Shown here: positions 2,661 through 63,416 of the stretch, piece by piece
Numbering within the stretch: the stretch's first letter is position 1
Layout: every line of letters starts with the position of its first letter
NCBI GenBank assembly: GCA_963855995.1
Contig: OY979722.1
Coordinates: 1,240,001 to 1,304,000 of the forward strand
DNA from: Muricea muricata
Lineage: Eukaryota > Cnidaria > Anthozoa > Malacalcyonacea > Plexauridae
Length of the DNA: 64,000 bases
Direction of reading: 5' to 3'
Notes under the pieces: model-generated
Seen by the model: only the letters and a program-made list of their open reading frames with translations
Told to the model about the DNA's origin: nothing
Databases searched by the model: none
Position numbers and translations under genes: made by a program

Positions 2661-4996
2661 ATGATCTCACTGTCAGATGCAATTCGTTTGGAGTCGAGCA
2701 ATCCTGCTGTGAACACCTTCAAACCGTGGTGGGAAGTCTGGTTGGATTGTACCCTAAATGCTTTCCTGTTGGTTGTCCTATTTGCCTTAGCTGGCGTTAC
2801 CATCTCTGGCACTCCTGGTCTTGTGTGCCTCCCAGTCAACACTAATATAACCTCATTGAATTATGCAGCAAATTTCTATGCCAATGCCAAGTGCACTACT
2901 CATGTTGATGGCCATATTTTGATCGTGTTTCCCTACATCATATTTGCCCAGTGGTTGATCCTCTTTGTGCTACATCTTTCCTGGTTTAACCTTCCATCTT
3001 TGAAAGCTTTCCTGGCCTCATCATTTGACACATTTCAAGTGTTGAAACAAGAAGGAAACCCAGTTATACAGGCTAAAACACGGTCGAAACAAAACCTTGA
3101 AAAAAAGCAAACAAAGGCAAAACCAAATGAAGTTTCAAATTTATCACCGCCCAATGTCCAAGACAATGATGAAGATCTGTTAAATTCAGGCAAAAATGCA
3201 AAGCTTGTGTATCTTGTTGACTGGCTAAAATACCTGTTGCAATTCGAATACAACTTAGTGTTTCTATACACTGCAAAATCTATCATAACTTGCGGCCTCA
3301 CAGCTATTCTTAGCGTTGGTCTAATTTCATCACTTGTGGCTTTCAAATGGAGAACAGCATTCACGTGTGATCTCCATGGCTCCCTACCACCACCCTTTGA
3401 CTACAATTCTTGCTCATTTCCTGCCGCGCCTTATGTGTACAGCATGATGATTCTGAATGCCATCTTTACAATACTGTTGGGTGTGTTTAATCTCCGAGCC
3501 TTGTTTTGGCTGGCTACATTCAGGTAAGACTCTCAATAATTCCAGTTGATCTGAAAACATGGGAAATTACTGGCACTAGTTGTCAAATAGAAATCCATTT
3601 TTCAATTCAATTCAATTTCAATTCAATTTCAATTCAAATTTCTCATGAAATATGATTAACAGTGTTTCTAAATTTCTGGCAGACTTATCATTCTCTTTAT
3701 TAAAGACAGTTTCTAAGTTTTAACAAGATTGACAAAGGAGAACAAAAGATATAAGTGATTAACAACAGCAGAATGGATTTCTATTTGGTAACTAGTTCCA
3801 GGCCTTTTACTCACAGTCAGATGAGCTAGTTTAAGGTATTATGAGCCTGCAGTAATTGGTTCACACTGTTGTAGTGACCCTGGCCTTGTGGCCAAACTAA
3901 ATAAAAAAAATGTGAAAGAAAAGGGTTATTTCTAAGCTGCTAGTTTCAGGCCCTTTTCTCACAGACAGCTCAGCTATCTTTGTATAATTTGTCCAGGTAC
4001 AATTATCGCAATTACCAACAGAAGAAATGGGGAAAAAACCATCCACTGAAAGGCAAACCCGGATTCTACGACTATTTCTTTTGCATTCAACTTCTGAAGG
4101 CGAACAACGCCGAGGGGAACGTCGTTTTTGAAACAATGGAATATGCCTTTGAAATATTTCAAAGTAAACTGCCTGAAGAAAGAAGCGAGAGCGTCTCCGA
4201 GACCTCGCTGGTTATCCCAGAAAAGCCAAGCCATTGCAAAAACCAGTTTGTGTTGACTGAAGTTTTGCGAAAGCTGGGAATGATTGCTAAAAAATCGAGG
4301 AGAAACGACTTATGGGCAGCTTTGGCTAATAGCTTGAGCCCGGATAAAAACGCCTTGTCATCGGAGGAACTCTTGACAGCAATGCAGGAACTCCGAAGGC
4401 GTGTCGTGGCTGAATTATTAGCGAAGCATGCACTATTTAAGGACTTGATCAATAAGGACGACCACTGTCCGATATTTGAAGATTACCTTGAAGACGTTAA
4501 ATTGGACGAAGTTCGTGAGAAGGGCATCAAAGAAGATCACTACATCTTAATGGCCTTCTCTATCGCGTACAAAGTCAACGTCGTCGTCGTCCGTGCTGAG
4601 AAAAGTTCCCTGCTTTACGAGCCGGAAAATCCCGAAAGTAACCAGTCAGTCTGGTTCATCACCTTTATTCCCCCACATTACTACCACGCAACAACCACTG
4701 ACCCCAATACAAGCGTCGAGGAAAGTACAGGCTTGACGTTTCTTACTGATCAAATTTATCAAACGGAGTTGTTGAAGGAGGTGAATGACAGATGGGAATC
4801 GGAGGGATACCCAGAGTATAGAAGGCGTTTGGAGAGTATTTTGCCTCAGGAGTTACCTTATCAGGCTCCAAGTCCTGTCAGAAAAGTGCCTGCTTTTGAA
4901 ATGGATGTAGAGGAAGAAGGCGTTAGATTGCGAGTGAGCAGATCGAAATCGGATAAAAAGAAGGCCGAAAGTTTAGTTCTTATAGACGCCGTGTAA
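2661..4996 (+). CDS. LRRC8/pannexin-like membrane domain fused to a probable inactive OTU domain
   Basis: Two exons, 2661-3523 and 3997-4996, joined AG|G, give 620 residues. I chose the ATG at 2661 (A at -3) because the protein then begins as LRRC8 subunits do: a short amphipathic start, then FKPWWEVW (20-27) and helix 1. Helices lie near 31-50, 85-107, 207-228 and 258-284. Paired extracellular Cys are C56 (in LVCLP), C78, C236 and C251. A Lys-rich intracellular loop (138-160) follows helix 2. In LRRC8 proteins a linker and leucine-rich repeats follow helix 4; here residues 289-365 resemble a linker and then about 380-522 reads as OTU: NDLWAALANSL (391-401), an Arg/Val helix, FEDYL (448-452), a buried VNVVVV strand and PPHYYHAT with His515. 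The position of the catalytic Cys is Asp392, so deubiquitinase activity is unlikely. Channel function is inferred from family. Confidence 0.8.
3540..3815. repeat. Dispersed MITE-like repeat, copy 1 (inside the channel-OTU intron)
   Basis: It begins CCAGTTGATCTGAAAACA and contains TCAAATAGAAATCCATTTT near the left end and ATGGATTTCTATTTGG near the right, an inverted pair. A second copy in the opposite orientation lies at 18060-18320. A fragment of the same end (CAGTTGATCTGAAAACACGG) occurs near 54747. Confidence 0.65.
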
Positions 4997-16600: not shown

Positions 16601-19600
16601 TAGATAAAAGACATGACAATGACATCATGAATGGTATTCCTGCTTGCTGACTGGACAGGCCTTAGAAACACCGCGGTTTACTCTTACAGTGGATGCAGGG
16701 TGGTCGTACCCTAAAAGCAACCGCTTGCTGAGACGCTTGCTCTTGACCTGTCGCTCTGTGACATAGGATTTATGAACTTCTCTTGTTACACATTAAACAC
16801 TTATTATATAAAAAAATATTTTGACTCACAGCAGCAGCCGAAACAAATTTTTGAAGTTCCACAGTCATTTATGTCCTACTATAAACACCAAGGGCGATTC
16901 TTGAGGCCCTGTTAGGGGGGTCTTGAATATACCTTATACCTATTATTAAAAGGTCATTTATACCTTATACCTAAAATGGCAGACATATTTATACCCAAAA
17001 GTACCCCAGCAACTCTTGTTTTCTTTTAGTTGCATTGTACACTATTTTTCACCCCTTGCAAAAGCATTTACCGGGTTGTTTTCATTATTTGGACATCACC
17101 TGTGACACCTGTGAATTTAGAGAGTCATTTTGCTCGAAGTTTCCAGTGTAGAAGCGAGAATGGGACAGTTTAATTGCAACTATAATTCGAAAAGCGTGCA
17201 GCAGTAACACTTACTTTTAGCAGATTTTATATTCTCACAAATACCGCCGTGGAACTTCAACTCTGCAAATTCAGGTTGAAGCTGTCGAGATATTAAAAGC
17301 GATCAGTATTGGTAACTATTGACAAATAAATGCTCCCAAATGCCTCGAATAGCTGACACAAAATGTCTTGTGGTCAGTTTTTTTTATACCTAAAAGTATA
17401 ACGCCAGTGATCATTTATACTTTATACCCAAAAGTCTATCGTTATTTATACTTTATAACTAAAATACTTTGGGTAAATATACCTTATACCTAAAACCCCT
17501 AACAGGGCCTCATTCTTGGAAGTTAAATAAAAACAACAGCGAGCGCACAACAAACGACGAATTAGAAAAACTTTCGTACTAGGAACGAATTAATACATTT
17601 TTTTGTGTTTTTGACCGTATAAGGAATGAATTTCTAAAGAAATGAATAATGATAATGATTAAAATTTGCATAGCATGACCAAATTGTCGGGCTGGCTTCG
17701 CTACTGTGGATCAGTGGACGCTGTCAATGGATCTGCATGATAGTGTCGCAGAAATGGACAGTGGTCACTCAGCAGTGCATTAAGTAGTGCCGCCCTATAC
17801 TGTATTTATGCAGTTTACTGACTGCCACTAGCCAGTCAAACATTCTTATTGGTCAGAAAATTATTGACTGGCTGGCATAATGGTAATGATGCGTGGACAC
17901 ACAAACTTTAATTGAGTCGCCCTGCTGTCAATTCCCTATACTGTGATAATGTGTTCACAATCAGTTTTTAACATCATTCAACCTGCATATTAAAAATATG
18001 ATAGTGTATTTTGTTATTGGTGCAATGTACTAGCATCTAGCTGATCTGACCGTCAGTAAAAGGCCTGGAACTAGCTATCAAATAGAAATCCATTTTGCTG
18101 TTGTTAATCACTTATATCTTTTGTTTTCCTTCGTGAAACTTGTTAAAACTTTGTAACTGTCTCCAATAAAGATAATTATAAGTCTACCAGAAATTTGCAA
18201 GCAAAGTCAATCATACTTCATGAGAAATTTGATAATTGAGATCGAAAAATGGATTTCTATCTGTCAGTATTTGACAACTAGTGCCAGTACTTTTTCGTGT
18301 TTTCAGATCAACTGGATTATTAGTTAGACTATTGTTTCCTCATTGGTAACCAGATATCCACAGCATGATTTGGACATGCCTTTCTGTTTTCGTTAATTCC
18401 AGCTTGCTCATGGCCAAGGAAATTTTTTGCTCGAAATAGATCGATATAGTCAACCGTCAGAAGAATTATCACCAAAATGTATCAAACTTTGTGTGACGAC
18501 CTCACCTTCTGGTTTTCCACGCTGCAACCTCAACACTACAACTGGTGCAGCTATGGTATCAAAATGGCGGGACACAGAAAAGAGTGCAACACCCAATCCG
18601 AAGACATATACATTTGAATTTGTTAACTGGGAGGTAAAAATTATAAATATATGTACATTTGTTTGAAACACACACGATAATGACCGTGTTGTTTACGTTA
18701 ATATAAATAGATCTATTGTATATACCAGTCAATGGTTTTAGAAAATTCTCCATTTTGCACGGTTAGCTATGATATTCCTCAGGTATGATAATTTATGCAA
18801 TATAGAGTATCTGGCAGTGCCATTATTATGCTGTTAATTTTACCTTACACTAGCTTTCAAACGCACAATTTATATAGGACAACAGTGAACTGAGTGCAAC
18901 TGTATGGAAACGTCCCGCAGGAGAATCGACATGTGATACATCGAGTCCTACTAATACTACATACTACGGAGAAGCTAGCAAAATCATACCGAGGTCAACA
19001 AGAGTCAGACAATACGAACTATATGCCGATAAATGGACAATTCGTGTAACGACATTAGTGCAGTGTAACAAGCGAGGATGCTTGGTACCATGTGTGCCTC
19101 GAGACAATAGCACAGGCCATTACACTTGTGATGATGGCAACAAAAAATGTCTACCAAAATGGTACGGTGGAAATTGTCTAAGAACTTGTGTGAAGCCATC
19201 CGACCCGCCTGGAAATTACAAATGTTCCAAGACTGGGGAAAAGAGATGTTTGACAAACTGGTTTGGTGAAAACTGTACAACTTACTGTAATTTAACCTCG
19301 TCAAACTATCAATGTGATAACAATGGTAAGAAAACCTGTTTTGAAAACTGGTTTGGCACGAACTGCTCAAAGTTTTGTGATAACTCGTCAAAAACCTACA
19401 GCTGCGATCAGACAGAAGAAAAAATCTGTAAAAGAAACTATTATGGAGAAGACTGCTCCGTATTTTGTAACAGCAGTGCGTCCACTTATCACTGTGGCAA
19501 AAATGGCGAGAAACTTTGTTTGAGAAATTGGTTTGGTGAAAATTGTTTAAAATTTTGTAACTTTAGTGCAAAAAACTACATCTGTGCACGTAATGGAAGT

Positions 19601-21750
19601 AAAATTTGTAAACAAAACTGGTTTGGGAAAAATTGCACTATCTTTTGCGACGAAAATCAATCTAATTATCGTTGCAATCAAGATGGAGGGAAAACCTGTT
19701 TGCCAAACTGGTTTGACAAAAGTTGTTCCAAATTTTGCGATCAAAACGCAACAAATTATAGATGCTCTAACAACGGAGACAAACTTTGCGTTCAAAACTG
19801 GTTCGGAAATGATTGCGAGAAGTTTTGTAACAAAACTTCAACGCGGTATAAATGTTCATTGAACGGTACGAAGTCTTGTCGTAGCAATTGGTATGGTCGT
19901 GAATGTTCAATTTACTGCGACGACACCATGGGAAACACGTACAGTTGTGATGATGCTGGAGGAAAAGTTTGTGCCAAGAATTGGTACGGTGAACACTGCA
20001 ACAAATTTTGTAATGCAACTACAGTCTATAAAAGATGTGATGAAGACGGAGAATTAGTTTGTAACAGTGACTGGTTTGGCGAGAATTGCACCATCTACTG
20101 TAATAGCAGTTCTGCTAACTACCACTGCAGTAACACTGGGGGAAAAATTTGTTTAGAGAATTGGTACGGAGCAGAGTGCACTGATTACTGTGACAACACC
20201 GCTTCGTATTATACCTGCGACGACAATGGCAGAAGAATTTGCTTACAAAATTGGTTCGGCACAAATTGCACAACATTTTGCAACACAACTGCACAAACAC
20301 ACGACTGTTCTAAGGATGGTAAAATAAACTGTTTGCCAAATTGGTTTGGTGAAAAGTGTTCTGTATATTGCGAGAAAAACGCTACGAGCTATCGTTGTGA
20401 ACGTGACGGGAGTAAAACGTGCTCACGTAACTGGCACGGAGAACATTGCAACGTCTTTTGCAACACGAGCTCAACAAAGTACGCTTGCAACGAAAATGGG
20501 AGAAGAACCTGTTTTCCAAACTGGCATGGGAAGAATTGCGAAACGTTTTGCGACAAAAACGCGACCACTTACGATTGTGACAATACTGGTCAAAAATCGT
20601 GTTTGCCATTCTGGTACGGACCAGAATGCAGAGCTCATTGTAGAGAGATTGAGTCGAATCTCTTTATGTGTGAAATAGAAGAGGGAAGTACACGTACTTG
20701 TCCAGAGGAATGGGAAGAGATTACCTGTGACGTGATTTGTGGCACAGAGGAAGATTTGAGGGCAGTTTTAGCGGAGTGCAGAAAGAAACGGGAGCGCAAT
20801 ATTTTATGTAAGACGACAACAGCTGATATCCTAACATGCTCCGACGATGGTAAGTGTTCATCAATAAACTGTTCATAGAACTGGAAAATACAAATGGCGC
20901 ATGGACAGGATTATGGCTATGTACATTCAAAATGAACAATATCAGTTATCTTGATACGAGCTTTCGGCTCAGACTGCAACATTTAACACGTGAAGATATT
21001 TGTTGTATGGTATAATAATAAAATAAACGTGAATCGTCCACCAAACATAACTAAGCTTGTTCTCTTTTTGTAGAACATGTCGACTATACACGCACAAGTC
21101 AAGAAAGCAAATCCCTCCTTGTTATTTCATCGATTGGAGCTATATTTCTGGTTCTTCCCGTTGTCATGTTATTCTTTATAATAAGGTATGCTTCTGCAAA
21201 ATGGACGATTCCCCTTTGTAGACAAACTTTTAAATTAGTAGGAATATTCATTAGCACAGCTGAAAAAAGCATCCTAAATTTAGTAAAATTTTAAAGTGTG
21301 GTTGCAAATCATTGTGAAATGGGGAAAATATAGTCCTGTGAAGTTTGCAAATTTTGTATACTTTGTATTACGCAAAGAAAAGTGTGGTCAGATTTCGAAA
21401 TGTGATTACACTTTTCCGCGCATAATACAAAAGTATACAAAATTTGCAAACTTCCCAAGACTATATTTTCCCATTTTACAATATTTTGCACCAAAACTTC
21501 AGCATTTTACTAAATTTAGGATGGTCTTTCCACCCGTGCTAATGAATATTCCTAATTCAAAAGTTTGTCTAAAAGGGGTGGTCCATTCGTACGGCGTTGG
21601 TTGGATTTCCATATCTAAAAGACTTCATGCTAATGTTTCGTACGACTGTGTTTACATTGTAGACGGAAACGAAGAAAACGAAATATTGTCACACCAACGC
21701 GAATTCAGGTGCAAGCTTCCAGAAATTTCGCCTGCACAACTGAGCTGTGA
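13692..21750 (+). CDS. DSL gene A: MNNL-like plus concatenated DSL repeats, type I membrane protein
   Basis: Proposed exons: 13692-13760 (23-residue signal peptide ending Lys, phase 0), 18403-18633, 18878-20849, 21074-21185 and a tail exon. Residues 24-165 resemble the MNNL domain of Notch ligands (Cys pairs, then a Phe/Trp strand at the exon 2/3 join and ATVWKRP). Then 17 units of about 30 residues follow the pattern FC-Y-C-G-K-C-NWFG-C, plus one degenerate unit. Many units carry N-glycosylation sequons. Exon 4 encodes a helix, VISSIGAIFLVLPVVMLFFI (about 774-793). The tail is ambiguous: the acceptor at 21662 gives a basic tail starting RRKRRKRN and stopping at 21750 (823 aa); the one at 21956 gives 13 residues after the join Arg and stops at 21999 (808 aa). 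No EGF repeats. Exon 1 is assigned by fit across a 4.6-kb intron and is the least certain part. Role, probably adhesion or Notch-type signalling, is inference. Confidence 0.8.
16903..17511. mobile_element. MITE with GAGGCCCTGTTAGGGG ends and internal TATACCTTATACC repeats
   Basis: Terminal inverted repeats GAGGCCCTGTTAGGGG and CCCCTAACAGGGCCTC. ATTCTT flanks both sides (16897-16902, 17512-17517), a 6-bp target duplication. The subterminal zones hold several copies of ATACCTTATACCTAAAA. Confidence 0.85.
17590..17698. mobile_element. Short MITE, family with TTTGGTCATGC ends, copy 2 (5' truncated)
   Basis: Shares GACCGTATAAGGAATGAATT, TCTAAAGAAATGAATAATGA and ends GCATGACCAAATTGTCGGGC followed by TGGCTTCGCTACTG. 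The left inverted end is missing. Confidence 0.7.
18060..18320. repeat. Dispersed MITE-like repeat, copy 2
   Basis: Reverse orientation relative to 3540-3815: it starts GGCCTGGAACTAGCTATCAA and ends GTTTTCAGATCAACTGG, with ATCACTTATATCTTTTGTT in common. It ends about 80 bases before exon 2 of DSL gene A. Confidence 0.65.
21199..21590. mobile_element. Foldback element in the 3' intron of DSL gene A
   Basis: Inverted arms of about 170 bp include GGAATATTCATTAGCAC (21239) against GTGCTAATGAATATTCC (21535), and TAGACAAACTTT against AAAGTTTGTCTA further out. The inner arms pair TTTGCAAATTTTGTATAC with its complement. The ORF crossing it is spurious up to the possible tail exon. Confidence 0.8.
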
Positions 21751-29669: not shown

Positions 29670-32600
29670 TTACTTGATAAATATTATCACCGCAAAGACA
29701 GCAATTATAATCAATCCACCAATGACACCAAACAGCACTGGTTGCAATATACTGCTGCCAAATTTTTTTGCAAGTTCTAAATGTAATTGTTTGAAAAATT
29801 ATTAAACATTTGGCATGACCTCCGTCCGTCCTCGATTTCCCCCACCTCCTTCCCTCAGTTCTCACACCTTCCGTTCCCGATCTCCCTCCGTTTCCCAACC
29901 TCTCTACGTCCCCCGAGCTTCCTGCGTTTCTTGACCGCATTACGTTCCCTGACCTTCTTCCTTTTCCCTACCTTCCTGCGCCCCTTCTCGCATTTTTCCT
30001 TCCTCCGATTTCACTTCGTTTCCCTACTTCTCAACTTCCCCCGACCTCCCTGCGTTCCATGACTACATTACGTTCCCCGATTTTCCTCCCTTCCCCACTT
30101 CCCTTCTTTCCCCAACCTCGCTTCAATCTAGCTCTTTCCTTCACTTTTTCATTCACTAATTCATCTTTACCTTCGTCTTTACTACAATTAGTGTTCATAT
30201 CATTTGACGATCGGGAACAAAGATGAAACAGACCAACTTTCTCCTTGCACTGATTCAAGGCATAACGTAAGTCTCTGCCCTTCCCTTTTATACACGTCGA
30301 CGAACAATAACGCTTTATCCATCCGTGAGGGCACTGAGCTGTTGATCTTCCAGCTTTATTGCACAAATAAAGATCAGGAACTGATTCAACTTTTGTGCAA
30401 TGCGATGCACATTTATTCTCTGGTAAACAAACCTCATAACCTTCTTGCGTACATATGTAAAGATCGGAGCTGTGGTTGCAAAATTTACTGCAATTCTTCC
30501 CATGCCAGTTTGGAAAACAGGTTCTTCTCCCATTTTCGCTGCAAGCGTACTTTGTTGAGCTCGTGTTGCAAAAGACGTTGCAATGTTCTCCGTGCCAGTT
30601 ACGTGAGCACGTTTTACTCCCGTCACGTTCACAACGATAGCTCGTAGCGTTTTTCTCGCAATATACAGAACACTTTTCACCAAACCAATTTGGCAAACAG
30701 TTTATTTTACCATCCTTAGAACAGTCGTGTGTTTGTGCAGTTGTGTTGCAAAATGTTGTGCAATTTGTGCCGAACCAATTTTGTAAGCAAATTCTTCTGC
30801 CTTTGTCGTCGCAGGTATAATACGAAGCGGTGTTATCACAGTAATCAGTGCAGTCTGCTCCGTACCAATTCTCTAAACAAATTTTTCCCCCAGTGTTACT
30901 GCAGTGGTAGTTAGCAGAACTGCTATCACAGTAGGTGGTGCAATTCTCGCCAAACCAGTCACTGTCGTTACAAACTAATTCTCCGTCTTCATCACATCTT
31001 TTATAGACTGTAGTTGCATTACAAAATTTGTTGCAGTGTTCACCGTACCAATTCTTGGCACAAACTTTTCCTCTAGCATCATCACAACTGTACGTGTTTC
31101 CCATGGTGTCGTCACAGTAAACTGAACATTCACGACCATACCAATTGCTACGACAAGACTTCGTGCCGTTCAATGAACATTTATACCGCGTTGAAGTTTC
31201 GTTACAAAACTTCTCGCAATCATTTCCGAACCAGTTTTGAACGCAAAGTTTATCTCCTTTGTTAGAGCATCTATGATTTGTTGCGTTTTGATCGCAAAAC
31301 TTGGAACAACTTTTGTCAAACCAGTTTGGCAAACAGGTTTTCCCTCCATTTTGATCGCAACGATAGTTAGATTGATTTTCGTCGCAAAAGATAGAGCAAT
31401 TTTTCCCAAACCAGTTTTGTTTACAAATTTTACTTCCATTACGTGCACAGTTGTAGTTTTTTGCACTAAAGTTACAAAATTTTAAACAATTTTCACCAAA
31501 CCAATTTCTCAAGCAAAGTTCCTCGCCATTTTTGCCACAATGATACGCACTGCTGTTGCAAAATACGGAGCAGTCTTCTCTATAATAGTTTCTTTTACAG
31601 ATTTTTTCTCCTGTCTTATCACAGTTGTGGGTTTTTGACGAGTTATCACAAAACTTTGAGCAGTTCGTACCAAACCAGTTTTCAAAACAGGTTTTCTTAC
31701 CATTGTTATCACATTGATAGTTTGACGAGGTTAAATTACAGTAAGTTGTACAGTTTTCACCAAACCAGTTTGTCAAACATCTCTTTTCTCCAGTCTTGGA
31801 ACATTTGTAATTTCCAGGCGGGTTGGATGGCTTTGCACAAGTTTTAAGACAATTTCTACCGTACCATTTTGGTAGACATTTTTTGTTGCCATCATCACAA
31901 GTGTAATGACCAGTGCTATTGTCTCGAGGCACACATGGTACCAAGCATCCTTGCCCTATGCACTGCACTAATGTCGTTACACGAATTGTCCATTTATCGG
32001 CATATAGTTCGTATTGTCTGACTTTTGTTGACCTCGGTATGATTTTGCTAGCTTCTCCATAGTATGTAGTATTAGAAGGACTCGATGTATCACATGTCGA
32101 TTCTCCTGCGGGACGTTTCCATACAGTTGCAGTCAGTTCACTGTTGTCCTATATAAATTGTGCGTTTGAAAGCTAGTGTAAGGTAAAATTAACAGCATAA
32201 TAATGGCACTGCCAGATACTCTATATTGCACAAATTATCATACCTGAGGAATATCATAGCTAACCGGGCAAAATGGAGAATTTTCTAAAACCATTGACTG
32301 GTATATACTATAGATCTATTTATATTAACGTAAACAACACGGTCATTATCATGTGTGTTTCTAACAAATGTACATATATTTATAATTTTTACCTCCCAGT
32401 TAACAAATTCAAATGTATATGTCTTCGGATTGGGTGTTGCACTCTTTTCTGTGTCCCGCCATTTTGATACCATAGCTGCACCAGTTGTAGTGTTGAGGTT
32501 GCAGCGTGGAAAACCAGAAGGTGAGGTCGTCACACAAAGTTTGATACATTTTGGTGATAATTCTTCTGACGGTTGACTATATCGATCTATTTCGAGCAAA

Positions 32601-36568: not shown

Positions 36569-38634
36569 TTATAGGATCTTGGATGTTGTTCTCGTCCTGA
36601 TGACTCTTGCTTTGATGATTTGCCATGAGCTATCTTTATAGATTTGAACTGTTGATCCTTGTTGAATCGGCGGATGTTCTTTCGCTGATCTGTCGTGGTA
36701 AGTTTTTTGTTTCATTGCCATCGATCTTCGCTGCGAACTGTAGTCACCATTTGGAAACTGACGCTTGGATTCATGGGATGAAGGTAATCTTGTTCGAATC
36801 TTCCTTCCAAATAGTCTTTCGGCAGGTGATAGACCAGTGTTTGGATCTGGGCATGCTCGATGTGCTTGGATTGCAATGTGTGGGTCTTCACCACTCTTTT
36901 CAGCTTTCTTCAAAAGTTGTTTAATGGTTTGAGCCTGCCATGCCGTTTGACTTTGGATACGTTGGACTTGATGTAGTATGGGTAAACTTTCGTTTTTGAA
37001 TTCTTTAAACTCCTTGCTGCTGAACTGTGGGCCATTGTCTGACATGACGTTCCTTGGTGTGCCATGTCTTGCGAATATGGATTTTAGCTTTCGAATGACA
37101 TGACGACTGGTGGTGTTTTCAAGTTTGGATATTTCGGGGTAGTTGAAATAATAGTCTACCACTACTAAGTAGTCGTATTTTTGAAATTTAAATAATTCAG
37201 TTCCAACTTTCTCCCCAGGCTTCGTGGGTGGAGTGTGTTGTATCAGTGGTTCTTTCTGCTGGTAATTTCGTTGTTCTTGGCATGTGCTACATCTTTGAAT
37301 CATTTCAGTTAATTCAGTGTTCATTCCTGGCCAGATTAATGCTTGCCTTGCTCTGGTTTTGCACTTTTCGATGCCGAGGTGACCTTCATGTATTCAGCGC
37401 TTCATGTCCTTTCTCAGCGTGGAAGGTACTATTACTTGTTCACCTTTCATCAGGATACCATTTGCTTCGCTGATTTCATCGCAAAACTGGAAGAATGTTG
37501 TTATGTCTTGTGGAAGTCAAGCTTTAGTATCTGGCCATCCATTACACGTGGTATCGTTCACTTTTTGTAGGTAGAAATGCTCTGGATAGGGCATCAGCTA
37601 TTGCCAAATCTTTCCCAGGTGTAAACTTTATAGTCATATCGTATTTCTGAAGTTTGAGCCTGAAACTCTGGATTCGTGGGGGGTGCATTTGCGATTGGCT
37701 TCGTAAAAATCGGTTGCAGGGGTTTGTGGTCTGATTCCACTGTGAAGTGTTTACCATATACGTAATCGTGAAATCGTTGTGTGCCAAATACGCTTGCCAA
37801 TGCCTCCTTCTCTATCTGTGCGTAGTTTTGTTCTGTCTTCGTTAAAGATCTGCTGGCGTATGCCACTGGAGCCCATGTTTCGTGCTTTTGTAGTAGAACT
37901 GCTCCAAGCCCATATTTTGATGCATCAACTGATAGCATGGTTTCTAGCTGTGGATCATAGTATTTGAGAATTGGACTTGAGGATATTTCAGTCTTTAATC
38001 TTTCGAAATCTTTTTCTTGATACTCGGACCAATGCCATTCAACAGTTGACTCTAGTGGTTGTCGTAGATGGGTTGTTTTCGATGAGAGATCTGGGATGAA
38101 CTTGCCAAGGTATGTTACCATCCCAAGAAAATGTTGCAGCTCAGTCTTGTTGATCGGTGTGGGCATTTCCGTGATCGCTTTAATCTTTGCTGGGTCTGGT
38201 TTTACTCCTTTGTCCGAGAAGATGTGACCAAGAAAGGTCATTTCTGTAATCCCAAAGACGCATTTCCCTTTGTTCAGCTTTAGTCCGGATTTATTAAACC
38301 TATCGAGTGTTTCTGCTAATCGAAGATCATGTTCGTGTTTTGTTTTCCCCCATACGATTATGTCATCTTGCACGTTCGCACAGCCATTAATTCCTTCAAT
38401 AATCTGGGATATTTTCTTCTGGAAAACTTCACTGGCACTAAAGATGCCAAAGGGAAGTCGCTTAAATTTATATCGTCCAAATGGGGTATTGAATGCTAGA
38501 AGCTTCGAGCTTTCGTCATCCCCTTTGATCTGCCAATACCCACTTGACGCATCTAATTTAGAGAAATATTTGGCGCCAGCCATGTCTGCCATAATCGACT
38601 CAGCGCTTTGCATTGGGCAATGTTCTCTTTTCAT
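36569..38634 (-). pseudogene. Pol remnant: reverse transcriptase, RNase H and integrase
   Basis: Frame 38634-37594 carries the reverse transcriptase (FSKLDASSGYWQI, LPFGIFSA, VQDDIIVWG in the catalytic YxDD place, FLGH) and an RNase H (SVDASKYGLGAVLLQ, ESDHKPL). A shifted frame 37324-36569 carries the integrase with the tail of the zinc finger (CSTCQ) and DNGPQFSSKEF of the DDE core. The pieces are separated by frameshifts and the 5' part is missing. It is inactive. Members of this family copy themselves through an RNA intermediate. Confidence 0.9.
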
Positions 38635-40581: not shown

Positions 40582-43500
40582 TCAGATTGCAATGTTGCGC
40601 ATGGAAAACACGTCATCAGGTGAATCCAAAGCCATGTACGGAGAAGCCGCCCGCATTTTACGGGTTGAGTCGTACAGCGGGTTTTCTACCATCATTCCTT
40701 TGTTTTCGTACCCAAGCTCTTCCGTGTTAGACTGACGTCTCCTGTATCAGAAGATAAGAATGAATCGTTCTTTAATCTTAATCCCAAATATAATGCATCG
40801 AAGTAACGTAATGTTAGTAACGTTATCAGTGTTGCTAGTGCAGTTAAAAGCACCCAAAAACATAGAATCTAAAGAACGAATCACAAAAAAAATGATGACT
40901 GTTGTTTAAAAGCTCCTACCACAAAGCCTGCTGTGATCATTCTAAGTTGATATTACTAATGTGAATTCTTGGTTTGCACATGACGTCATTTCGTGTCACT
41001 GGGCGCCATCTTGGTTGACTCTGCAGATTACCTCAGCTGTTTACAGTGAAGTACTTGTGTCAATTTACTATTTCATCGTTAGTTTTAGCGTATCATGAAT
41101 GATACTTTAAAGATGTATGGCTCGATAGGATCAGAAATAATGAATAGATACTTTGTGGTTGCCATGTGTTTCGATTCGATTCGATGGCGTCGATTGCAAA
41201 CTATCAATAAACTTGGATTATGCATCTCAGCAAAAAGGAGTATTAGTTCTTACCTCATTAATTCATCAATATTCAAAGTAAGTTCCGCACGATTGAACTT
41301 TCGAGCAAAGAATTCTTTTCGAAATTCGTCTGGCTCCTCGTAGTCGCCATAGTCAGGTGGTGGCGGTGTAGTCACTTTCCTCTTCTTCTTGCGCCTAAAA
41401 AGAAATAAGTTATATACACATGTGTCTCATGTATACATCGCCTTGTAGCATCCCGTTTTCTATTTTGTCGTTTGGACGGTGTGGATCAGTGAACTCTAAA
41501 TTAGACTGGAACGATAACTTGGCCGCCATCTTTGAAGCCAAATTGGTTATCTATAGGTTATCAAGTTCGGTCCTTTTCTATTGTTTCTCTCGGCGCGGTT
41601 GACACCATTCTTCTGAGAATGTACCGATATTTGATGTTTTTATTTTGATTTAAGAGGTAATTTTATGGTTTATGAACTTATAACCTAGTTTGCGATACAG
41701 TCTTTTTTAAAAATAGCAAATACCTCGGGAAAATAGTACTAAGACTGTTTACGACATTTGTAGTTGTTGCCGCCATCTTGGCTTCACCCAAACGTCGGGT
41801 TTTTATCTGGAGTTATCGTTCCAGTATTTATAGAGTTCACTGGTGTGAACAAGTAGATTTATTACAGATGTTTTACATCGCAGCTTAACAAATTTTACGA
41901 CGGGCTTTAATGCATGTTTACTTATATTATTTACTTAAGACTGGACGAGAGTTGGCAGTCACAAAATTGCCACAGAAGCATTTGAATCTTGAAAAATGAA
42001 AAATGAGTGTTTTGACTGTGTTTTAAAATTTCACTTCAAAAAAATACCAACCTCGTACCCTGGCTCTCTTCCTCGGGCGAGAGCGTAGAGAAGAGAGCCT
42101 GGGTACGAGGTTGAAAAAATACTTGATTGTGCTAGAAAAGCATAAAGTACAGCGACTAGCCAACACTCGTCATCTCAATTGACCTCGTTTGATCCGGGCT
42201 TTAAACAATGAAAACATAATTTATCTTACCATAAAAGCGCTATGATCATCAAAACTATTATCAAACACAGTGCTCCAATCACTCCAAGATGTAGACGCTC
42301 ATTTGAATTACCTTGAAGCGGTTGAACACTTTTATCTATTACATGAAACGAAATGAAAAAAAATCATATTGAGAACAGTGAGATAAATGTGTGTTTAGAA
42401 TATTGTCCAAAAGTACAGATTAGCAATAGACGTTTGAAGTCCTTACGTCACGCCCGAGTTAAGCAATGAATAGCAATGCAATGTGGGAAACATGTGGGAA
42501 AAATTTACCTTGTATTTATATGCATTGAAAACCGTCTGACGCAAGCGCTTCTAAGGTCTACTAGGGTAGAACTTTTTACATCGCTTTGCGTTAAGACTTT
42601 CCTTGTACTGTAGTATAGTTGATCATTTTAAAAATCTCATCACACGCAGAAAATGAGAGTTGAAAGATGAGAGTTAGCATAAATATTTCTATAGCTTGCG
42701 TGACGCCGTCAAAATGAAAACAATGCATATTAAGGAGATATGGCGGGAGCGAAAACTGTTCCTCATTTAACTCAATAAAACGGGAATCTAAAAGGAGATT
42801 TTGGCTTCAGCATTCTTCTATAACCACCCGGTCATGGCTTCTGGGGATGGAAAGGAGGTTTTCAAGATGGCACCTGCTTTTCAAGATGGCGGCTGTTTTT
42901 CAAGATTCTTAAAACGAGAAAACGAGAACGAATCAACAATCAGACATTTATAACATTCCCAAACTGAGGTTAGGTTCAGAGTAAGATTTAGGAATGTTAT
43001 AAGTGTCTGGTTGTTGACTCGTTCTCGTTTTAAGAATCTTGAAAAACAACCGCCATCTTGAAAAGCCTAGCAGTTATGACCGTAAATTCATCGTGCGATA
43101 TACTCACCGGAGTTTAACAATGACGGTGCAACATGCGTACACATGTCACCCGTGTCTGTAGAATTGATACAGAAGAATGCTCTACCATTGCTGCTGGCAC
43201 ACTTCTTCTTGTACTTTTTGACTATCTCATCGACATTGTCGCAATTATCTAAACAATTTCTATTCTCATCCCGCCACATGCCCTCAGGGCAACTGATATT
43301 AACATCAGATGATTTATTCCATTCTTGAAGTTCGAAGTAATGCATCTCAAAGGTCAGACGTATTCGTGTATATTTACAATTCTCCCCGTACCAATTTTCA
43401 GCACAAATTATTTCGCCGTTTTTGTCACAACGGTAACGCACTTCAGTGCTGTTGCAGAATTTTGTACAATTTGCACCATACCAATTCTGGAGACACACTT

Positions 43501-46500
43501 TCCCGCCTTCATCATTACATTTATAGCGCGTATCACTATAGTTACAATGCTTTGAGCAATCCTTCCCAAACCAGTTTTTCCGACAAGTTTTATCTCCGTC
43601 TAACGTGCATTCAAATGTTTTAGTGTCGCTGCGGCAAAATTTCAAACAGTTGGGACCATACCAATTCTGCAAACACACTTTTCCCCCTTCATCATCACAT
43701 TTATAGCGTGTATCACTATTGTTACAATGCTTTGAACAATCCTTTCCAAACCAGTTTTTCCGACAAGTTTTATCTCCTTCTAACGTGCATTCAAATGTTT
43801 TACTGTCGCTGCGGCAAAATTTCAAACAGTTGGGACCATACCAATTCTGCAAACACACTTTCCCCCCTTCATCATCACATTTATAGCGGGTATCACTATT
43901 GTTACAATGCTTTGAACAATCCTTCCCAAACCAGTTTTTCCGACAAGTTTTATCTCCTTCTAACGTGCATTCAAATGTTTTACTGTCGCTGCGGCAAAAT
44001 TTCAAACAGTTGGGACCATACCAATTCTGGAGACACACTTTCTCCCCTTCATCATCACATTTATAGCGTGTATCACTATTGTTACAATGCTTTGAACAAT
44101 CCTTTCCAAACCAGTTTTTCCGACAAGTTTTATCTCCTTCTAACGTGCATTCAAATGTTTTACTGTCGCTGCGGCAAAATTTCAAACAGTTGGGACCATA
44201 CCAATTCTGCAAACACACTTTCCCCCCTTCATCATCACATTTATAGCGGGTATCACTATTGTTACAATGCTTTGAACAATCCTTCCCAAACCAGTTTTTC
44301 CGACAAGTTTTATCTCCTTCTAACGTGCATTCAAATGTTTTACTGTCGCTGCGGCAAAATTTCAAACAGTTGGGACCATACCAATTCTGGAGACACACTT
44401 TCTCCCCTTCATCATCACATTTATAGCGTTTATCACTATTGTTACAATGCTTTGAACAATCCTTTCCAAACCAGTTTTTCCGACAAGTTTTATCTCCGTC
44501 TAACGTGCATTCAAATGTTTTATGGTCGCTGCGGCAAAATTTCAAACAGTTGGGACCATACCAATTCTGCAAACACACTTTCCCCCCTTGATCCTCACAT
44601 TTATAGCGTGTATCACTATTGTTACAATGCTTTGAACAATCCTTTCCAAACCAGTTTTTCCGACAAGTTTTATCTCCGTCTAACGTGCATTCAAATGTTT
44701 TATTGTTGCTGCGGCAAAATTTCAAACAGTTGGGACCATACCAATCCCTTGAACATACCTTGCCACCGTTATCGTTGCATTTAAAATGCTCAGCACTGTT
44801 GTTACAATATATCGTACAGTTCTTCCCGTACCAATGTGGCAAACAAACGCGACTTCCTGCTTCGTCACACACGTAATTTCCCAAGCCGCTGTCACAAAAC
44901 TGATCACAGTCCTTGTCAAACCAGTTTGGCGCACAAATTCTTCGTCCTTGTCTGTCACATTGATAGTTGCTTGCACTCACGTTACAAAATGTGCTACACT
45001 CTTCACCGAACCAGTTTTTTATACATTTTTTATTGCCACGTGAACAAGTGTAGTGAGCTGTGACATTGTCTTGGCTGCATCCTTGGCATCCTGTGCACTT
45101 TAAAACTGTGCCCACATCAATTTCCCATTTGTTACCCTTAATGTCTACATGTTGAGCAATGTCAACTAATTTAGGTATAATTGTGCTAACATCGCCATAA
45201 TGTGTACAGTTGTTTGGCCTTGTTGTATCACACGACTTTCCTGTTTCGAGTCTCCAAACAGTTGCAGTCAGGATAGTGTTATCCTGGAATGTGAAGATTG
45301 TGTGATTAACGAAAACGTCTTTCATAAGATCCATGATTTATATAGTTGTGCCTATATCTCTAGACACAACGAAGCCAGCCCGAGAATTTGGTCATGCCAT
45401 GCAAATTTAAATCATCATTATTCATTTCTTTAGAAATTGATTCCTTGTACGGTCTATAAACACAGAAAAAATTGCATTTGCATGACCAAATGTTGGGCTG
45501 GCTTCGCCACCCTAACATATGCGTGCAAGAAGAATATCACTATATCTTTGTTCATTTATTATAATACCACTCTGTTAAAGCTTGCAAAGAGTGTAACAAA
45601 CCATCAAGGCAAACCAAAAAGGCCCTAGGAACAAGGTTAACAAACCAGCACGTACACAAAGACGGGGACTGGGAGGACTATGACTTCCCTTCCCCTATTC
45701 TAAACTATCAAAGTTCAAGCAAAATTTTTCTTTGTTCTTAGATAATCAGCTCTGAGCTCTGCGTAAATAGATTACAAAAATGAAGACCAAAAAAGTCATT
45801 TTAACCAGAACCATACCTTCCAGGAATGATTGAAATTATAAAACTCCCCAAGTTTATCGAGTTTAAACTTCTTGCCTTTAAAAGTTGCCGTGAATGTGTA
45901 CGTAAAGTTACAACTTGGAAACTGGAAAGGTGGCACGGTCACACACAGTTCGATACATTTTGCTGCATTGTCAATTGTGTCTTTATAACTATCCATCCCC
46001 AGTAGTAATTGTTCTTGGCCGTTGGCAACCTGATAAAATACATATAAGAATTAAAATTGTTTACTCTTTACTGACGGTACTGCACGTCAAACAAGATTAA
46101 GGGCCTGTTTACATGGAGGTAGGGTGACCCTAGCAGAAGGGTTACCCTAGCAAACGAGTTACCCTACTACAATATGTTTTATAGGAAGCGTTTACATGTG
46201 CGCTAGGGTTACCCTAGCGGTAGGGTTACCCTATCAAATAGATAGGGTTACCCTAGCAGTAGGGCTATCTTTTTGTCTACATAAGCCATGTAAACGCTTC
46301 AGGTAGGGTTACCCTATCAAGCGGGTCAAGTTATTCGCCTTCAGTAAATGTCAAACAAACAAAGATGGTCACAACGCTGAAATGAAACAACAAAATTAGC
46401 CAGACATAGTATCACACAGCATACCACAAGAACTTCGCACGTTAATATCATTTTTTAAATGAATGGCTGAGCGACCACGTTAAGATAGGGTTAACCTATC

Positions 46501-62756: not shown

Positions 62757-63416
62757 ATGGCCGCTGAAAACGTGCTTTTCCAACAAGGAGCGGAGGCAAA
62801 GATCTATTCTTCTACGCTCCTTTCCAGACCAGTTATAGTAAAAGAAAGATTTAAAAAATCCTACAGGCATCCAGTTTTGGACGAGAAACTCACACATCGA
62901 CGCACGTCTCAAGAAGTCCGCTCCATAGCAAGATGTAGGAAGGCTGGTATTTCAACGCCTGTTGTGTATTTTGTGGATTATACGTCACATAAAATATACA
63001 TGGAAAATGTTCAAAATGCAGTGCCGGTGAAAGATGTTATAAACTCCAAGTTAGCACAAAATTCAGACTTGGAACAGTTGGCTGAAAAATTGGGCACCAT
63101 GTTGGGCCAAATGCATTCCGTCGATGTGATCCATGGTGATTTGACCACATCAAATATGTTGTTACGTGACAGTGAAGATATTGTACTTATTGACTTTGGA
63201 CTGAGTTATATATCATCATTAGTTGAAGATAAGGGCGTCGACCTGTATGTATTGGAACGCGCATTGCTCAGTAGCCACCCCAACACTGAACAGTTCTTTC
63301 AGAAAGTTTTACAAAGTTATGTCACAGCAACTGGAAGTGCAAAAAAAGCACAAGAAATTTTGGAAAAATTGGAAGAAGTTCGATTGCGAGGACGAAAAAG
63401 AGTCATGGTCGGATAA
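62757..63416 (+). CDS. TP53RK: TP53-regulating kinase (Bud32/PRPK), KEOPS subunit
   Basis: Intronless, 219 residues (human protein 253; archaeal and yeast forms similar in core length). It is the atypical kinase/ATPase of the KEOPS complex, which with OSGEP makes the t6A modification at position 37 of ANN-decoding tRNAs; the animal protein was also described as phosphorylating p53. Motifs: GAEAKIY (11-17) replacing the usual Gly-rich loop, Lys29 in VIVKERF, RRTSQE (48-53), catalytic HGDLTTSN (126-133) and DFGLS (146-150), and the C-terminal basic RLRGRKR that Bud32 proteins carry. The ATG at 62757 is preceded by ACCAAA, a good context. The small gene at 62204 lies upstream in the opposite direction, and DHRS4 converges downstream. 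Confidence 0.95.
   Translation: MAAENVLFQQGAEAKIYSSTLLSRPVIVKERFKKSYRHPVLDEKLTHRRTSQEVRSIARCRKAGISTPVVYFVDYTSHKIYMENVQNAVPVKDVINSKLAQNSDLEQLAEKLGTMLGQMHSVDVIHGDLTTSNMLLRDSEDIVLIDFGLSYISSLVEDKGVDLYVLERALLSSHPNTEQFFQKVLQSYVTATGSAKKAQEILEKLEEVRLRGRKRVMVG

Follow-up and report, generated by a model that had tools for sequence, protein, structure and literature searches.

The stretch of DNA analysed here (the window, 64,000 nucleotides) covers positions 1,240,001-1,304,000 of Muricea muricata contig OY979722.1 (GCA_963855995.1), called contig C7 in the searches of the same genome, which covered 453 Mb in 74 contigs. Near the beginning of the window lies a two-exon gene coding for an LRRC8-type membrane domain joined to an OTU-like C-terminal domain (Table 1). 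Further along, three long frames at 19058-20878 (plus strand), 30031-31968 (minus strand) and 43088-45334 (minus strand) consist of tandem DSL (Delta/Serrate ligand) stretches matching PF01414 at E down to 9e-94, with 16, 16 and 18 stretches, respectively. By eye the first two frames closely resemble each other, and they run in opposite directions. Retroelement frames with reverse transcriptase/RNase H and integrase occupy 36569-38634 (minus strand), and a single-exon frame at 62757-63416 (plus strand) codes for a small kinase-like protein of the RIO1 family (PF01163, E 2e-11), which we take to be TP53RK/Bud32-like.

Gene structure and membrane domain

The two exons, of 863 and 1000 nt, form an open frame of 620 codons plus the stop, from the ATG at 2661 to the stop codon ending at 4996. 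The donor CAG/GTAAGA follows position 3523 and the acceptor TTTGTCCAG/GT stands ahead of 3997.

Table 1. Features of the window gene and exons of its two full-length paralogs. Positions are those of the window unless a contig or locus is given.
Feature	Position	Strand	Basis
Exon 1 (residues 1-287, two bases of codon 288), coding for the four-helix LRRC8-type membrane domain	2661..3523	+	splice model, PF12534
N-terminus, FKPWWEVW, TM1 and LVCLP, residues 1-65	2661..2855	+	stretch best matched by PF12534
TM1, residues 30-48	2748..2804	+	hydropathy
First extracellular loop, Cys56 to Cys78	2826..2894	+	Cys invariant in three paralogs and three LRRC8-type proteins
TM2, residues 86-104	2916..2972	+	hydropathy
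TM3, residues 208-226	3282..3338	+	hydropathy
Second extracellular loop, Cys236 to Cys251	3366..3413	+	Cys invariant in the same three plus three sequences
TM4, residues 258-276	3432..3488	+	hydropathy
Intron, 473 bases, GT-AG, phase 2	3524..3996	+	stop codons if the frame is read through
Exon 2, coding for the cytosolic linker, the OTU-like domain, a conserved putative helix and the tail	3997..4996	+	splice model, own-genome matches
Linker, residues 289-359	3998..4210	+	G-F/Y-x-D-x-x-FC conserved in three paralogs
OTU-like domain, residues 380-522	4271..4699	+	hhalign, three-paralog profile against 12-sequence OTU profile
Asp392, aligned with the OTU catalytic Cys	4307..4309	+	by eye and in forced full-length alignments; gap instead with MAFFT
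His515 (in PPHYYHA), aligned with the OTU catalytic His	4676..4678	+	paralog and OTU profile alignments
C-terminal region, putatively helical, residues about 524-575	4703..4858	+	conserved in three paralogs
Paralog C2, exons	C2 22145633-22145862, 22142786-22143790, 22140817-22141456	-	GT-AG sites and alignment
Paralog C7b, exons	L018 2026-2458, and from 5051 on		GT-AG sites and alignment

The Pfam scan identified the LRRC8 family PF12534 with its best match over residues 1-65 (E 2e-8 with the whole protein, E 1e-9 with exon 1 alone). The score of the window protein, 34.2 bits, exceeds the curated cut-off of 25, and so do those of the two paralogs described below (C2, 41.1 bits; C7b exon 1, 36 bits). 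Exon 1 was also aligned to an LRRC8-type protein of the same genome (L001) over 345 columns with 24% identity (E 8e-9), and LRRC8D and LRRC8C appeared as weak PDB sequence matches for residues 1-82 (best E 0.008). Pannexins and innexins are large-pore proteins with four helices and two extracellular Cys pairs. The window protein resembles them in this topology but matches PF12534, and the Pfam scan returned no innexin family for it at E up to 10.

With LRRC8A-E, the subunits of the volume-regulated chloride channel VRAC, the window protein shares the N-terminus matched by PF12534, the position of the start, the FKPWW-type motif, the four predicted helices, the extracellular Cys, a long cytosolic loop and, after TM4, the succession of a linker and a cytosolic C-terminal domain. 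It differs from them by its short first extracellular loop and by an OTU-like domain in place of the leucine-rich repeats: Pfam detected no leucine-rich repeat family in the window protein or in the main exon of C7b (E up to 10), nor in C2 (E up to 1), and gave clear matches in L001 and in L002, another LRRC8-type protein of this genome. As counted by eye in the alignment, the outer loops of the OTU-type family hold 4 Cys against 6 in L001 and L002 and 7 in L004. The three OTU-type proteins and the three LRRC8-type proteins of the genome were separated with a branch support of 1.000 in an unrooted tree of these six membrane domains. A match of the linker following TM4 to the cytosolic linker of LRRC8 had been expected, but its score against LRRC8 linker profiles did not rise above that of shuffled sequences (99 of 300 and 21 of 200 reached it).

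Recurrence of the fusion in two diverged paralogs

At least six matches to exon 2, itself included, were found in the genome, the five others at E 5e-18 to 4e-6, and at least seven to PF12534, C7b not being among the matches listed. Two full-length paralogs were modelled, their exon borders being placed manually from GT-AG sites and alignment. C2 counts 624 residues and aligns with the window protein over the full length of the latter at 26% identity (E 2.5e-75). C7b, which lies 5.7 Mb off on the window's own contig, counts 592 residues with 31% identity (E 1.4e-81); it is modelled with two exons, between which an additional small one is possible. Scans of viral contig and genome contig collections yielded no relatives of either exon.

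The introns of the three genes fall at different places: that of the window gene follows TM4, those of C2 interrupt the first outer loop and the OTU-like part, and the one modelled in C7b interrupts the cytosolic loop. A single exon of C2 codes for the first outer loop, TM2-TM4, the linker and the start of the OTU-like part, and a single exon of C7b extends from ahead of TM3 through to the end of the protein, the whole OTU-like domain included. The window intron is missing from both at the equivalent place. The sequence WLATFR/YNYR, split by the splice in the window, corresponds to WVGTFR-IIRC within a single exon of C7b, and C2 also reads through this place. Since single exons of C2 and C7b hold both parts, the membrane and C-terminal domains belong to one protein regardless of the 3523/3997 junction.

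A tandem copy 96-98% identical to C2 adjoins it (L019, G000:C2 22133500-22141000). The frame of this copy changes in TM2 and no TM1 exon was seen in the stretch read, indicating that some copies do decay. The comparison of C2 with this broken partner gave dN 0.0041 and dS 0.0507 (dN/dS 0.08) from TM2 to the start of the OTU-like part, and dN 0.0112 and dS 0.0707 (dN/dS 0.16) for the OTU-like part and the tail; pooled and rounded, 20 synonymous and 8 non-synonymous changes were counted on about 345 and 1236 sites, respectively (Fisher p 2e-8). With dN/dS values of 0.08 and 0.16, both halves of the C2 form have been under purifying selection.

These data are in agreement with several points of an earlier, sequence-only reading of the locus. 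It had joined 2661-3523 and 3997-4996 in one gene, as the open frame, the GT-AG borders and the read-through in C2 and C7b confirm. The LRRC8/pannexin-like four-helix domain that it described, with PF12534 proposed as a check, is recovered in a match above the curated cut-off, in the hydropathy topology and in four conserved outer Cys. Finally, the proposed fusion of a channel to an OTU-like part in one protein is repeated in C2 and C7b, both full-length and diverged and each with introns of its own.

The C-terminal domain and its probable OTU-like fold

Scans of the C-terminal domain against Pfam, NCBIfam and PHROGs returned no informative family. The Pfam OTU model, whose use the sequence-only reading had also suggested, matched neither the window protein nor C2 nor C7b, and the places of these three genes were absent among the genome Pfam OTU matches listed (150 of 235 candidates scored). 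No OTU chain was retrieved by PDB sequence searches with single sequences and family profiles. The best PDB match of the pair profile was a designed TIM barrel (E 0.004) whose repeat stretches each scored E 29-94, and a weak Pfam score was observed for the unrelated PF03648 (E 0.02-0.17). AlphaFold, run without alignment, produced two models with pLDDT 34 and 36, the second of which had no Foldseek match at E 0.001.

As the Pfam and PDB sequence searches had found no OTU, direct OTU profile tests were carried out. An HMM built from five human OTUs, with the OTUD3 sequence verified, gave 13.7 bits on window exon 2, 9.4 on C2 and 8.9 on C7b, the three matches overlapping along the model. Among 2000 shuffled versions of exon 2 (1583 scored) the highest value was 9.8 bits, and the 244 remaining open frames of the window gave at most 5.3 bits. 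In profile-profile comparisons, the window-C2 pair profile scored 35.0 against OTU (shuffles at most 22.5) and the three-paralog profile 38.6 (shuffles at most 20.3), with 0 of 400 shuffles reaching the score in each case. Against a 12-sequence OTU profile, the three-paralog profile scored 41.6 (hhalign, probability 90%) in an alignment of 110 columns spanning positions 7-118 of the 121 of the OTU profile; none of 300 column shuffles reached this value (maximum 22.8) and the reversed sequence scored 10.3. Decoy profiles gave 18.6 (caspase) and 8.6 (LRRC8 linkers). Identity in the OTU profile alignments was about 15-17%. An OTU-type fold of residues 380-522 is thus supported by profile comparison, as a remote relation. 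The OTU-type domain named in the sequence-only reading stands on these comparisons and their controls, and finds no backing in the Pfam OTU and PDB sequence searches.

A rather unlikely alternative is that the C-terminal domain adopts a different alpha/beta fold, peculiar to these channels, and that its OTU likeness is due to a chance pattern of helices and strands. Such a fold would account for the Pfam and PDB searches, with single sequences as with family profiles, finding no OTU, and the weak scores of PF03648 and the designed TIM barrel point in the same direction. Moreover, OTU was chosen first and then tested, and, two decoys aside, it was the one fold family compared at this sensitivity, which introduces a bias. 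Chance would nevertheless have to explain why three diverged paralogs score in overlapping stretches of the OTU HMM, why the alignment covers nearly the whole domain at scores reached by 0/400, 0/400 and 0/300 shuffles, and why C7b carries a complete OTU Cys motif.

The genome contains at least 151 Pfam OTU matches (E up to 10; 150 of 235 candidates scored), and about 30 of those listed are part of long open frames (800 to 2667 residues), suggesting OTU-carrying mobile elements. Capture of the OTU domain from such elements would have had an abundant source, and we consider it unlikely. To represent the genome's own OTUs, 30 loci (L020-L049) were reduced to 13 full domains and then to seven non-redundant ones, with borders taken from the human OTU HMM. 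The three-paralog profile scored 25.9 against these seven domains, a small margin over the shuffle maximum of 23.1 (n=300), and the own-genome profile alone gave 7.9 bits on C7b, 0.3 bits on the window and a value below zero on C2. The window protein thus scores far higher with the five human OTUs than with the seven of the genome (13.7 vs 0.3 bits) and the two values of C7b are nearly equal (8.9 vs 7.9 bits), so that capture seems the less likely reading, although this evidence is weak.

At the place of the catalytic Cys, where OTUs read DGNCLFRAL, the window protein reads RRNDLWAAL, with Asp or a gap and no Cys. C2 (SHDLINTL) has no Cys there either, and C7b reads SDDCLFNAIAK, the OTU HMM putting its Cys column on this motif. 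The His place, conserved in the window protein, is occupied by Arg in C2 (PPRDYIA) and Asn in C7b (HPNYYTA). No gene of the three retains both the Cys and the His at the corresponding OTU positions. In relation to OTUD3/OTUD5-type deubiquitinases, the family is therefore characterised by a profile likeness along nearly the whole domain and by the loss of Cys, His or both in each channel gene; judged from these alignments, the domain looks catalytically dead. The expression 'ubiquitin-pathway fold' used in the sequence-only reading holds as far as the profiles support the fold, and overlooked the missing catalytic Cys with its Asp392 or gap. Without this Cys, the domain is better named pseudo-OTU.

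It is quite improbable that the domain is instead an active deubiquitinase with a shifted active site, trimming ubiquitin from the channel or its partners. The Asp-Cys motif retained by C7b and His515 retained by the window protein are compatible with such an activity, and mixed subunits could in principle unite the different residues. The pair is nevertheless incomplete in every one of the three genes, and to our knowledge the known OTUs have both residues in one chain. Still less probable is a decaying or chimeric gene model, with membrane and downstream domains in separate genes or the locus a pseudogene: the tandem C2 copy does change frame in TM2 and shows no TM1 exon in the stretch read, but in the window gene two open exons are joined by a clean splice, the fusion lies within single exons in C2 and C7b, and the C2 copies display dN/dS of 0.08 and 0.16.

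A comparable pattern is found in the human pseudo-deubiquitinase FAM105A/OTULINL, which has Asp139 in place of Cys, has His350/His352, resides at an ER-like membrane location, and neither cleaves nor binds ubiquitin (PMC7862380). The window protein likewise combines, in the forced alignment, Asp for the catalytic Cys with a retained His in a predicted membrane protein, a likeness of pattern that does not by itself imply kinship. FAM105A is a relative of OTULIN with a predicted membrane-localisation motif, for which no channel domain is described. Since FAM105A does not bind ubiquitin (PMC7862380), a pseudo-OTU domain need not do so.

Proposed function and place among LRRC8-type proteins

In the usual account, LRRC8 proteins combine a pannexin-like pore with leucine-rich repeats and are of chordate origin; their subunits form rings of six, and the leucine-rich repeat domain of LRRC8A, under the pore, is linked to gating and surface delivery (PMC9399500). 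LRRC8-like genes have also been reported in Nematostella vectensis (Abascal and Zardoya 2012, as cited in PMC9399500). Like the window gene these lie outside chordates, and the passage on them in PMC9399500 mentions no C-terminal OTU domain. A search of the open-access literature, with subscription papers and preprints outside its range, retrieved no report of an LRRC8-OTU fusion.

The explanation that we favour, with moderate confidence, is that the window gene encodes an LRRC8-type channel subunit in which a pseudo-deubiquitinase domain serving for docking or gating replaces the leucine-rich repeats. The N-terminus would face the pore, formed by subunits of four helices with two extracellular Cys pairs that would assemble as a ring. 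Below this pore the pseudo-OTU domains would form a platform for docking and gating, in the manner of the leucine-rich repeat domains of LRRC8. They could bind another protein, which may be ubiquitin itself or a ubiquitylated protein, and this binding may be coupled to channel opening or trafficking without any cleavage, the cytosolic platform being a dead enzyme retained for binding. As the genome contains at least two more genes of the same build, the channel family appears to have exchanged its usual sensing part for a new one.

Other LRRC8-type genes were observed in the same genome. At L001/L009/L011 (G000:C11 12643604 to about 12646350), a membrane frame matching PF12534 (E 1.4e-52) joins, by a frame change and with no convincing intron, a second, uninterrupted frame in which leucine-rich repeats follow a linker that by eye resembles that of LRRC8 and precede a complete caspase domain containing QACRG (PF00656, E 1.5e-45). 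The words 'pannexin', 'LRR' and 'leucine' do not occur in the main text of a coral caspase survey (PMC4715348). L002 is a plain LRRC8-LRR gene. At L004/L010 (G000:C10 2159308-2168900), the LRRC8-type frame ends soon after the linker, with no leucine-rich repeats in the stretch read and a further exon possible.

Because the genome has forms with leucine-rich repeats, with leucine-rich repeats and caspase, with no repeats and with pseudo-OTU, the cytosolic end of the LRRC8-type family seems exchangeable. It is conceivable, as a tentative extension, that LRRC8-type proteins outside vertebrates are modular receptor-channels with interchangeable ends (LRR, LRR plus caspase, pseudo-OTU or none), among which the window gene would represent a non-cutting branch gated by ubiquitin-type signals. 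If so, one branch would connect the pore directly to the recognition of ubiquitin, and another would connect it to a protease of cell death.

That one animal genome holds three diverged forms combining this pore end with an OTU-like end suggests that the pore has been joined to other sensors. The family would offer a natural experiment on the part played by the leucine-rich repeat domain in gating, and may connect large-pore channels directly to the ubiquitin system.
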